DNA from: Labilibaculum euxinicum
GTDB lineage: Bacteria; Bacteroidota; Bacteroidia; Bacteroidales; Marinifilaceae
Assembly: GCF_009795715.1 (NCBI RefSeq)
Contig: NZ_WTCR01000010.1
Location: 62,001-126,000 of the forward strand
Direction of reading: 5' to 3'
Length of the DNA stretch: 64,000 nt
Shown here: piece after piece, positions 9,927 to 31,412 of the stretch
How the letters are laid out: each line of letters opens with the position of its first letter
Position numbering within the stretch: position 1 is the stretch's first letter
Notes under the pieces: model-generated
Told to the model about the DNA's origin: nothing
The model's input: only the letters and a program-made list of their open reading frames with translations
Database searches by the model: none
Program-made: the position numbers and the translations under genes

Positions 9927-10445
9927 CTAAATATTAAAAAGTACACCAACAGCCAGGTTAACATTCTCATAAGCTGTGTTGTATTTAAAATCACCAAAAA
10001 ACTGAACATCACCACCCGTTCTAGCTCCGATACCTAAATTCAAACCAACTTTTGAATCGGAACCTGAAAAAGTTCCGAACTCGCCAAAATTTACCGACGC
10101 ATCGATATAAGAATAATTTAAACCTCCTATGGCATATACTTTTAAAGTCTCTTCCTTTACAAAATTATAATGTGCATCCACATCCAACACATATTCAGTA
10201 AGATCTATACCAGAGGGAGAACTTGGGAAGAAATAAGTAAATCCTGGAGCAATTGAAAATGATTCATTCAACTCATACAATCCTTTAACTCCAATACCAA
10301 ATGCCGCAGCCTCACTTCCGTCATCATCAATAGAAAGTTTAGTTCCAAGAACCAAATTTCCGCCCAATTTCATCTGTGCACTTGCTTCAAGGCCTGCAAA
10401 AATCATAACGGCAACAGCAATTAGAAATAAAATTTTCTTTTCCAT
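9927..10445 (-). CDS. Small outer-membrane beta-barrel protein
   Basis: The ATG at 10445 gives 172 residues starting MEKKILFLIAVAVMIFAGLEASAQ, a clean signal peptide ending in ASAQ; the frame extends upstream to 10523 without family sense. The mature part is alternating beta strands (LGGNLVLGTKLSI, AAFGIGVKGLYELNESFSIAPGFTYFF, KVYAIGGLNYSYI, VGLNLGIGARTG) and ends VNLAVGVLFNI, typical of eight-stranded OmpA/OmpW-like barrels that end in an aromatic or hydrophobic residue. It probably sits in the outer membrane; the ligand is unknown. Confidence 0.8.
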   Translation of the reverse strand: MEKKILFLIAVAVMIFAGLEASAQMKLGGNLVLGTKLSIDDDGSEAAAFGIGVKGLYELNESFSIAPGFTYFFPSSPSGIDLTEYVLDVDAHYNFVKEETLKVYAIGGLNYSYIDASVNFGEFGTFSGSDSKVGLNLGIGARTGGDVQFFGDFKYNTAYENVNLAVGVLFNI

Positions 10446-10613
10446 AATTTTAGTTTTAGGTTTAAAATTACTTACTCCGAATATCGAAGACAATATGAAA
10501 TTTAATTGTTTCACAATAAACAAACAAATTTAAATCAACACCTATTACCTGTATACTAAACCTATATCTACACAAACGAAACAAGCTCATATTCAAACCC
10601 ATTTCTTTTCCGC

Positions 10614-10703
10614 GATCATATTCAGACTAACCGGAACACAGCACAGAAGTGCAAAAAAAGTGATCTGAGGTATCTTTGATGTTGATGCCAAAACAATTCT
10701 GAT
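10614..10703 (+). pseudogene. Decayed duplicate of the prfB 5' end including its frameshift site
   Basis: Bases 10667-10703 match prfB bases 10895-10931 at 34 of 37 positions by eye: GAGGTATCTTTGA, one change, GTTGATGCCAAAA, one change, AATTC, one change, GAT. Upstream similarity continues in pieces (GATCA-AT-CAGAC and GCAC-GAAG) back to about 10614, matching the prfB start codon region. The copy has no usable start or open frame: its TGA is followed by T, not C, and there are indels. It looks like a remnant of a local tandem duplication with an offset of about 228 bases. Confidence 0.75.
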
Positions 10704-10787
10704 TTCCTTTTGCAAAGCTGAATCTTAAAATATTCATCGAAGTGTTATTTCTTTTTTCTGAAAACAACATTACACCTTCTTTTCAAA

Positions 10788-10817
10788 TTGTTCCTTCCTC
10801 TTTGTTTATTACCTTTA
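10788..10817 (+). promoter_or_regulatory. prfB promoter (TTG-N19-TACCTTTA)
   Basis: The -33 TTG (10788-10790) and the -7 box TACCTTTA (10810-10817) are 19 bases apart, the spacing used by the Bacteroidota housekeeping sigma factor. The last base of the -7 box departs from consensus. The box ends 24 bases before the prfB ATG. Confidence 0.5.
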
Positions 10818-10841: not shown

Positions 10842-11940
10842 ATGATCACATCAGACCAGCTAAAAAGTTTAGCGGAGCGCACGGAAGCGTTAAGGAGGTA
10901 TCTTTGACGTTGATGCCAAAATAATTCAGATACAGGAAGAAGAATTGAGAACTCAGGCTCCCGGATTTTGGGACAATGCAAAAGAGGCTGAAATTCAAAT
11001 GCGAAAAGTAAGAGGGCTTAAATCCTGGGTAGATTCTTACAATGAAGCAAAAGAAGCAATTGACGACCTTCAGATATTATTCGATTTCGCCAAGGAAGAT
11101 GAAGCATCACCGGAGGAGGTAGACGAGCAATTTGCAGCTGCACAAAGCTTAATTGAAGCTCTTGAGTTAAGAAATATGCTCCGAAAAGAAGAAGATAAAC
11201 TGGGAGCCATTCTAAAAATAAATTCGGGCGCCGGTGGAACTGAAAGTTGTGATTGGTGCGAAATGCTCTACCGAATGTATTTACGGTACGGCGAAGCTCA
11301 TGGCTATAAGGTAAGTTCATTGGAATATCAGGAAGGTGACGAAGCCGGAATTAAATCGGCAACTCTCGAATTTGAAGGTGATTTTGCTTACGGATTTTTA
11401 AAATCCGAAAATGGCGTGCACCGCTTGGTTCGTCTTTCTCCATTTAATGCAGCCAACAAACGAATGACTACTTTTGCATCGGTCTATGTTTATCCTGCCA
11501 TTGACGATACCATCGAAATTGAAATCAATCCTGCTGATATCAGTTGGGATACTTTCCGTTCGGGTGGTGCCGGCGGACAAAATGTAAATAAAGTGGAAAC
11601 AGGTGTTCGGTTACGACATGCTCCAACCGGAATCATCATTGAAAATACCGAAACCCGCTCCCAATTTGGGAACCGCGAAAATGCACTTCGATTGCTGAAA
11701 TCGCAGCTATACGAATTGGAACTAAGAAAACGTCAGGAGGAAACGGACAAAATTGAAGGTTCGAAAAAGAAAATTGAATGGGGTTCACAAATTCGTTCCT
11801 ATGTAATGCAACCTTACAAACTGGTTAAGGATGTAAGAACAGGCCACGAAACTTCCAATGTTCAAGCCGTTTTAGATGGCGGTTTGGATGGATTCATCAA
11901 AGCATTCCTAATGGAATTCAGCGAGGAAGATAAAAAATAA
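10842..11940 (+). CDS. prfB: Peptide chain release factor 2 with programmed +1 frameshift
   Basis: The gene is split into two frames. The zero frame from ATG 10842 reads [21 protein letters not shown] and stops at TGA 10905-10907. A +1 shift gives [23 protein letters not shown] and continues to TAA 11940, about 365 residues in all. The shift site AGGAGG-TAT-CTT-TGA-C is the standard autoregulatory site of bacterial RF2: low RF2 slows TGA recognition and favours the shift. The stop-recognition motif SPF is at residues 199-201 and the peptidyl-hydrolysis GGQ at 244-246. Annotation software will usually miss the first 21 codons. RF2 reads UGA and UAA. Its methylase PrmC is encoded nearby. Confidence 0.96.
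10893..10908 (+). promoter_or_regulatory. prfB +1 recoding site
   Basis: An internal Shine-Dalgarno-like AGGAGG (10893-10898), three bases, then CTT TGA C (10902-10908). The spacing matches that of the well-studied E. coli prfB site. It is notable that this AGGAGG is kept although genes in this window otherwise show almost no Shine-Dalgarno sequences. Confidence 0.93.
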
Positions 11941-12238: not shown

Positions 12239-12901
12239 ATGAAATCATTTATCACTTTTTTATTGGCATTTTTTTTATGCTCACAAGCAAATCTCTTTGC
12301 ACAGAAAAACAGACTGAACAAAGAGAGAGAAAAGGAAGGCAGATGGGAAGAATATTTCAAGGATGGAAAACTAGCTGGAACTGGGGCATATAAAAATGGA
12401 AAAAAAGTAGGGAAGTGGGAAGAATACACGAATAGGAATATTAGCTTTCGGATAATAAGGTATAAAAATGGAAAAAAACAGGGAAAAGAAATTTGGTACA
12501 GAAACCAGAAATTCTTTAAAACCCGTTTAAAACTTAAAAAAGTTGGTAAAATAGCAGGTAAAATAAGATTTAAAAATGGAAAGGAAGAGGGGAGATATAG
12601 AGCTTACCATTATAATGGAAAATTATCAACCACAGGAGTATATGAAAACGGAGAAAAACAAGGAGAATGGATCTCGTATTGGGCAAACAGAAATTTAAAG
12701 AAAAAGTGTACTTATAAAAATGATGTGAGAGAAGGTGAATGGATTTTCTACTTCGAAAATGGAGATTTAGAAGAAAAAGGGAATTATAAAAATGGTGTGA
12801 GAGAAGGTGAATGGACTACCTACAATAAAGATGGAAGTGTGGACCAAAAAGCAATCTTTAAAAATGGCCGTACAAAAGATAAATATCCTGTATTGGATTG
12901 A
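12239..12901 (+). CDS. Exported YwqK/MORN-like repeat protein
   Basis: The 220-residue protein has a signal peptide (MKSFITFLLAFFLCSQANLFAQ) and then seven or eight repeats of about 20-23 residues with the pattern Y-K-N-G-K-xx-G-x-W-x-x-Y-x-x-x-G-x-L, as in the MORN-variant repeats of YwqK-like proteins. YwqK of Bacillus is described as an antitoxin, but secreted Bacteroidota relatives are generally uncharacterised, so no toxin role is claimed. A near-identical but frameshifted copy follows 50 bases downstream. Confidence 0.8.
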   Translation: MKSFITFLLAFFLCSQANLFAQKNRLNKEREKEGRWEEYFKDGKLAGTGAYKNGKKVGKWEEYTNRNISFRIIRYKNGKKQGKEIWYRNQKFFKTRLKLKKVGKIAGKIRFKNGKEEGRYRAYHYNGKLSTTGVYENGEKQGEWISYWANRNLKKKCTYKNDVREGEWIFYFENGDLEEKGNYKNGVREGEWTTYNKDGSVDQKAIFKNGRTKDKYPVLD

Positions 12902-12951
12902 TTTTATTGCATAAAAAAGGAAACATCAACAAACACTTTTTAAGAAAAAAA

Positions 12952-13637
12952 ATGAAAACATATATCACTTTTTTATTGGCATTTTTTTTATTCTCACAAG
13001 CAAATCTCTTTGCTCAGAAAAACAGGCTTAATAAAGAGGGAGAAAAGGAAGGCAGATGGGAAGAATATTTCAAAGATGGAAAGCTAGCTGCCACTGGAGC
13101 ATATAAAAATGGAAAAAAAAAGGAAAGTGGACAGAATACACGAATTGGGATAGAAGCTTCTGCAAGCTAAAGTATAAAGACGGAAAAAAACAAGGAGAGC
13201 AAATTTGGTACAGGAACCGGGAATTGTATAAAACCCGTTTAAAACTTAAAAAAGTCGGTAAAAGAGCAAGTAAAGTAAGATTTGAAAATGGAAGGAAAGA
13301 GGGGAAATGGAAAGATTATTTTATAAGCGGAAAGTTATGGGGCAAAGGGAAGTATAAAAACGGAAAAAAAGAAGGACAAGAGAGCTGGTATTGGGAGAAT
13401 GGAAACACAAATAGAAAGGGAACATATAAGGATGGCAAACAAGAAGGTGAATGGCACTGGTACTCCAAAAACGGAAAGCTAGAGGAAAAGGGGACTTACA
13501 AAAATGGTGTGAGAGAAGGAGAATGGACTACCTATAATGAAGATGGAAGTGTGAATCAAAAAGCCATGTTTAAAAATGGTCGTACAAAAGATGAATATCC
13601 TATAGAGGTCATTAATACAGATAACACAAACCCCTAA
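12952..13637 (+). pseudogene. Second YwqK/MORN-like gene, split by a -1 frame break at an A9 tract
   Basis: The start MKTYITFLLAFFLFSQANLFAQKNRLNKE is nearly identical to the previous gene. The zero frame reads into EASAS and stops at 13168-13170. The -1 frame from the A-run at 13113-13121 reads GKWTEYTNWDRSFCKLKYKDGKK and continues as normal repeats to TAA 13637. Comparison with copy 1 suggests an ancestral A10 run that lost one A. The zero frame contains A AAA AAG (13116-13122), so slippage would restore the full product. It may be a pseudogene, a phase-variable gene, a slippage-expressed gene or a sequencing error. Confidence 0.75.
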
Positions 13638-31208: not shown

Positions 31209-31280
31209 GGTCCGTTCGTCTAGGGGTTAGGACGCCAGGTTTTCATCCTGGTAACAGGGGTTCGATTCCCCTACGGACTA
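31209..31280 (+). tRNA. tRNA-Glu (anticodon TTC), copy 1
   Basis: A 72-base cloverleaf: acceptor GGTCCGT/ACGGACT with discriminator A, D arm TCGTCTAGGGGTTAGGACG, anticodon stem CCAGG/CCTGG with loop TTTTCAT (anticodon TTC), T arm CAGGGGTTCGATTCCCCTA-type. CCA is not encoded. Confidence 0.95.
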
Positions 31281-31287
31281 CGAAAAG

Positions 31288-31319
31288 TTTGTAGCAAGTT
31301 ATTTTTTAACTTACCTTTG
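31288..31319 (+). promoter_or_regulatory. Promoter of the second tRNA-Glu (TTTG-N20-TACCTTTG)
   Basis: TTTG 31288-31291, 20 bases, TACCTTTG 31312-31319, located between the two tRNA copies, so copy 2 can be transcribed on its own, probably together with rpsT. Confidence 0.75.
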
Positions 31320-31340
31320 CTACGCAAAAATAAAGATAAT

Positions 31341-31412
31341 GGTCCGTTCGTCTAGGGGTTAGGACGCCAGGTTTTCATCCTGGTAACAGGGGTTCGATTC
31401 CCCTACGGACTA
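31341..31412 (+). tRNA. tRNA-Glu (anticodon TTC), copy 2
   Basis: Identical in all 72 bases to the copy at 31209-31280, 60 bases downstream. rpsT begins 32 bases after it. Confidence 0.95.

Follow-up and report, generated by a model that had tools for sequence, protein, structure and literature searches.

A decayed second prfB start-to-shift-site region in Labilibaculum euxinicum, and putatively structured tandem units ahead of prfB in its relatives

The 64,000 nucleotide stretch of Labilibaculum euxinicum DNA analysed here (the window) carries a decayed second copy of the prfB start-to-shift-site region upstream of the functional prfB (RF2) gene. The copy is of tandem origin, and extra units of this kind have persisted in a clade of Marinifilaceae, with stem arms that co-vary and, in most start-bearing units, a reading frame cut off ahead of the shift site. 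That a duplication of the prfB 5' region in an ancestor within the family gave rise to a non-coding structured leader element, now a decaying relic in the window genome, is a proposition whose chances we judge to be evenly balanced. The copy in the window is decaying and has neither promoter boxes nor a start codon; most probably, therefore, it is a relic, a duplication scar. Relatives, we infer, keep a structured tandem array that may function as a non-coding leader or as a decoy in RF2 control; such a decoy role is likelier in relatives whose units are intact than in the window genome, because neither promoter boxes nor a start codon can be recognised in the copy of the latter. The features of the region are collected in Table 1.

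Table 1. Features of the prfB 5' region in the window
Feature	Position	Strand	Basis
Decayed second prfB start-to-shift-site region	10612..10701	+	Match to covariance model R1; orthologous copies at the same place in G007 and G008
Outer stem P1, arm 1, GATCAT	10614..10619	+	Full pairing possible with 10660-10665; covariation across lineages
Hairpin P3, GCAC(AGAA)GTGC	10641..10652	+	Present in single-strand fold; sequence reading
Outer stem P1, arm 2, GTGATC, within the insertion missing from real prfB	10660..10665	+	Pairing; covariation
37-nt core with GAGGTATCTTTGA, 34/37 identical to 10895-10931	10667..10703	+	Comparison and shuffles
Hairpin P4, GGTATC(TTTGATGTT)GATGCC, around CTTTGA	10669..10689	+	Fold
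Spacer between copy and prfB promoter	10702..10787	+	Diverged between lineages
Putative prfB promoter-like site, TTG-N19-TACCTTTA	10788..10817	+	Script scan
Functional prfB (RF2)	10842..11940	+	Sequence; ORF; Pfam PCRF and RF-1

The autoregulation of RF2 is a textbook example of recoding. In the functional gene of the window AGGAGG (10893-10898) is followed by TAT and by CTT TGA C (CTTTGA at 10902-10907), where a +1 shift is expected by analogy with the known prfB signal. The initial annotation had placed a 34 of 37 match to this region 228 bases upstream, a figure which direct comparison reproduced; the local alignment against shuffled controls that it had proposed gave an ungapped score of 59, compared with 30 for the best of 1000 dinucleotide-preserving shuffles, none of which reached the score of the 37-nt match. 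Head-to-tail homologous units, the hallmark of a tandem duplication of the prfB 5' region, are thus present at a spacing of 228. The repeat is one of five direct-repeat families (at least 28 nt, copies not more than 600 nt apart) in the 64 kb window. The remaining four are unrelated to it, and one of them is a tRNA pair also matched by Rfam. Two neighbouring, nearly identical tRNA genes, 132 bases apart, lie at 31209-31412, and six copies of short repeats of about 30 nt were noticed at 12454-13375, inside adjacent repeat-protein reading frames. The neighbours of the copy are prfB and, on the left, a divergently oriented gene for an outer-membrane beta-barrel protein (PF13505, minus strand, about 9927-10445). 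No further match with E <0.25 was found in the own genome beyond the known sites.

It had also been suggested that scattered matches extend from the core back to the start codon. Comparison of the window with itself gave no significant support (560/2000 and 1050/2000 shuffles did equally well); a profile of the relatives' copies, in contrast, aligned over the whole prfB start-to-shift-site region of the copy, as covariance model R1 matched 10612-10701 at full length (model positions 1-99) with 56.7 bits and an E value of 2.6e-11. Similarly, the copy had been described as having no open frame. The CTT TGA frame is in fact open for 38 codons back to 10560 (10560-10679), and this stretch contains no ATG, GTG or TTG. 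The T reported to follow the stop is there in the window copy, and the corresponding base is C in its two nearest relatives, G007 and G008 (genomes are given by G numbers, G000 being that of the window).

The window copy descends from the programmed +1 frameshift site of prfB and keeps GAGG-TAT-CTT-TGA. It differs from a functional shift site in having no start codon in an open CTT TGA frame, TCTGAGG in place of AGGAGG as SD-like site and no C after the UGA. P2, the start codon and any upstream promoter-like box have been lost. Its P1 arms can form 6/6 pairs, and P3 (mostly GCGC...GCGC in intact copies) and P4 are kept in the R1 alignment; in the minimum-energy fold P3 and P4 form and P1 is absent, which counts against reading the copy as a structured element. 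No Rfam 15 family matched the copy at gathering score, the three tRNAs being the only hits in the 64 kb window. In origin, and in the window genome also in present state, the copy resembles the pseudogene fragments left by tandem duplications; the difference lies in the relatives, where an insertion specific to the copies is found repeatedly and shows covariation with the start region.

The prfB gene was sought in 40 genomes (the own genome and 39 relatives), 30 loci were taken and the upstream regions were read in part of these. Comparison of the same gap between genomes, a check recommended at the outset, revealed further copies of the prfB 5' region upstream of prfB. When 56 genomes of the family (Labilibaculum and neighbours) were searched with R1, at least two matches were obtained in 12, one in 11 and none in 33. 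Each of the 12 has between one and three additional units ahead of prfB, and Marinifilum caeruleilacunae also carries one. The assembly of the latter breaks inside the extra unit (L052 4694-4882, L055 1-150) and both contig ends share the unit, which suggests that two or more units are present there. In 11 of the 23 matching family genomes the real prfB was the sole match, and one of these is G069, in which a degraded copy is present. When the start region was compared with the kilobase upstream of it, the similarity exceeded all 100 shuffles at 13/36 testable loci (of the 39 prfB loci, three had no placed site), namely in the 12 genomes and in G069. Among 246 other genomes of the order sample (247 with the own), for which 16 candidates per genome were scored, 26 had one match, 220 none and 0 two; the absence of extra units beyond the clade is therefore weakly supported.

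A full unit consists of a promoter box, the leader, the start codon, about 20 codons, the shift site and 25-30 nt more, followed by a spacer. Units are spaced 206-241 nt apart where CTTTGA is kept, 182 in G014 and 168 in G069. In Labilibaculum filiforme (G003) CTTTGA occurs at 748, 988 and 1228 in addition to the real site at 1458, and G004 and G006 have three sites each including the real one; the second extra copy of G004 is truncated, and another G006 copy lies at the end of a different contig. The description as a tandem-duplication scar therefore holds for the window genome and falls short for the relatives, in which the whole leader/start/shift-site unit was duplicated, often together with promoter boxes. 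In G003 adjacent units show near-identity across some 240 nt and agree with the true prfB start as far as the shift-site region. The parts concerned differ from species to species, which together with the likeness within G003 suggests concerted evolution. In an RF2 gene tree of 22 rows (10/18 inner branches well supported) the carriers fell within one clade which also contained several non-carriers. A single old gain followed by several losses would produce such a pattern, and repeated gains may also explain it. The duplication is an old one, found in several genera of the family and re-amplified in some. The degraded copy of G069 is without the insertion, which points to a separate or a reverted duplication. 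Decayed copies were found in G000, G002, G007, G008, G014 and G069, and they count against a functional reading.

Start-bearing units contain 9-11 nt (e.g. GCGCCAAAAAAGTAATCTGAGGTATCTTTGAC where true prfB has GCGTTAAGGAGGTATCTTTGAC) that were found in 0/19 real prfB starts. The reading frame ends before CTTTGA in 10/11 start-bearing copies: in nine the insertion puts TAA, TAG or TGA ahead of the shift site, and in G002 the frame stops at codon 4. G016 is the only one with CTT TGA in an open frame, a case that counts against the shift sites being disarmed. ATG is missing from the start position in the window copy, G007, G008, G014, G058 and G061, and in most copies the SD-like AGGAGG is reduced to TGAGG or TAAGG. 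The possibility that the short frame serves as an RF2-specific stop sensor was rejected, because the frame ends in TGA in some species and in TAA or TAG in others.

The insertion is complementary to the stretch directly behind the start codon of the copy, and the two can form stem P1. The arms read GATTAC/GTAATC in Marinifilum and G016, GACTAC/GTAGTC in G004 and two G006 copies, GATCAC/GTGATC in G005 (and, with one G-U, in G002), GATCAT/GTGATC in the window copy and GGCCAT/ATGGTC in G058 and G061. Against this, a C.A mismatch is found in G003 (3 copies), G007, G008 and the third G006 copy, and an end mismatch in G014. With one entry per lineage, hand-placed arms, G006 represented by its two pairing copies and the truncated G004 copy and G069 left out, 63/66 cells were paired over 11 lineages, and 7/20,000 random re-pairings of the arms, which ignore relatedness, were as good. 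Without G058 and G061 the corresponding values were 57/60 and 94/20,000.

In alignment A2, comprising 10 intact copies, the four-helix structure paired 95.0% of cells compared with 26.8-37.1% when slid, and all P4 cells were paired. Shuffles reached the paired percentage in 2/500 cases and the covariation score likewise in 2/500. Three pairs had changed on both sides, a number equalled by 48/500 shuffles, and the pair types were equalled by 481/500; the covariation count leaves out G000, G002, G007, G008, G014, G058, G061 and the truncated second G004 copy, and these tests cover few lineages and ignore kinship. Compensatory helix changes, by which a conserved RNA is recognised, were thus observed in the relatives' copies, in few lineages. 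Minimum-energy folds contained P1 in 6/11 start-bearing copies, which counts against a structured element. For silencing of the start codon by P1 the results were mixed: start-codon accessibility in the copies (0.38-0.77) overlapped that in real leaders (0.46-0.83). Relative to the real leader of the respective genome, accessibility of the wider start region was reduced in G002, G004, G016 and the three G006 copies (in one slightly) and not reduced in G003, G005 and Marinifilum.

The main rival explanation is a neutral tandem duplication, functionless in every species and homogenised with the adjacent prfB by gene conversion and unequal crossing-over. We regard it as a serious candidate, somewhat short of even chances. 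It would account for the near-identity of promoter and start regions within a genome, for the decay in several lineages and for the 11/23 matching family genomes in which the real prfB is the sole match (G069 with its degraded copy among them). It also agrees with the copy changing faster than its flanks: between G000 and G007 5/90 positions differ in the copy, and 1/165 and 2/141 in the flanks. As prfB lacks the insertion, however, conversion from prfB explains the core and not the insertion, the arm of which co-varies. Over 36 pairs of 9 copies (one per lineage; G007, G008, G014, G061 and G069 left out) mean identity was 0.90 in the core, 0.71 in the insertion (shuffled baseline 0.43) and 0.59 in the spacer (baseline 0.52); between Marinifilum and G003 the insertion and the spacer had identities of 0.88 and 0.49, respectively. 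Among G000, G002 and G005 the insertion (0.75-0.88) was no better kept than the spacer (0.81-0.84), and that of G016 was near baseline against the others (0.40-0.62); both observations count against constraint, as does the short length of the insertion in this comparison (14-16 nt). Between distant lineages the insertion is mostly better conserved than the spacer.

Matching arms could also arise at the DNA level, if strand switching on an inverted repeat created the insertion and still maintains the complementarity of the arms, with no selection acting on RNA. This would fit the matching arm changes and the G016 copy, in which GTTGTAATC is the exact reverse complement of the GATTACAAC that follows the start codon, with 9-nt perfect arms. 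Given that most copies have the A-rich part of the insertion in common, and that the copies with a C.A mismatch show correction not to be automatic, we find templated mutation improbable. By far the least probable explanation is that a mobile element integrated here, supplied prfB with a new 5' end and left an attachment-site scar: the upstream genes differ between species and an IS-like insertion apparently lies in one G006 spacer, but the distance between units leaves no room for such an element, one G003 unit (130 nt) had no match in 50,697 phage and 72,556 plasmid records, a 21-nt pattern had no exact match in viral contigs, and the own-genome search was likewise negative. The IS-like insertion seems to be located in the first spacer of the G006 array (L017 ~1-430 and L039 5950-6051, its interior at an assembly break), with the ends CAGGGCAAACT / AGTTTGCTCTG flanked by repeated GATCACCCTT.

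If the duplicated unit did become a structured leader element, the following course can be envisaged. In an ancestor within the family the prfB promoter, leader, start and frameshift region would have been duplicated in tandem, and the unit would have turned into a non-coding structured leader element. It may be transcribed from its own promoter, ahead of or besides the prfB mRNA, as a folded RNA with a disarmed shift site. RF2 output could then be tuned by the added promoters and the structured 5' leader or, alternatively, the unit could titrate any factor acting on the prfB leader. The unit of the window genome would have lost its promoter boxes and start codon and be in decay. Of the 15 extra units scanned, five had TTG-N19-TACCTTTA, presumably the promoter consensus (three G003 units, one of G005 and one of Marinifilum), four had the TACCTTTA box alone (G002, two of G006, G016) and six had neither box (G000, G007, G004, one of G006, G058, G014). 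The full match was thus missing in 10/15, which counts against transcription from an own promoter. The more far-reaching proposal, that the gene's recoding leader, once duplicated, was reshaped into an array of structured non-coding self-mimics which regulate RF2 in Labilibaculum and Marinifilum, with copy number as the dial, appears rather unlikely to us.

Repeated structured leader units ahead of one gene are known from tandem riboswitches. The prfB units are likewise repeated, structured and located ahead of one gene; they differ in that some have promoter boxes of their own, and in that the window copy has no counterpart in Rfam. Under the more far-reaching proposal of a regulatory array, an RNA element would have been born from an mRNA frameshift leader. 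The array of disarmed shift sites would provide a natural system for studying leader structure, promoter number and RF2 level, and may reveal the transition from a coding leader to a non-coding element. The ribosomes of Bacteroidia occlude the anti-Shine-Dalgarno sequence. As regards the timing of the shift, the authors of one article (PMC8710568) hypothesise other cis-acting elements or trans-acting factors. None of the open-access papers listed in full-text literature searches describes such prfB leader copies.

A search of 393 genomes of the order with the spaced pattern TATCTTTGA-N{195,225}-TATCTTTGA matched 63 genomes and was dropped as a count; among the matches listed, the places were mostly regular, CRISPR-like arrays of about 77 nt. 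Arrays of this type, with a repeat containing GTATCTTTGA, occur in many genomes of the order (L059-L078; G047:C2:184527-186222), and their likeness to the prfB shift site is probably due to chance.
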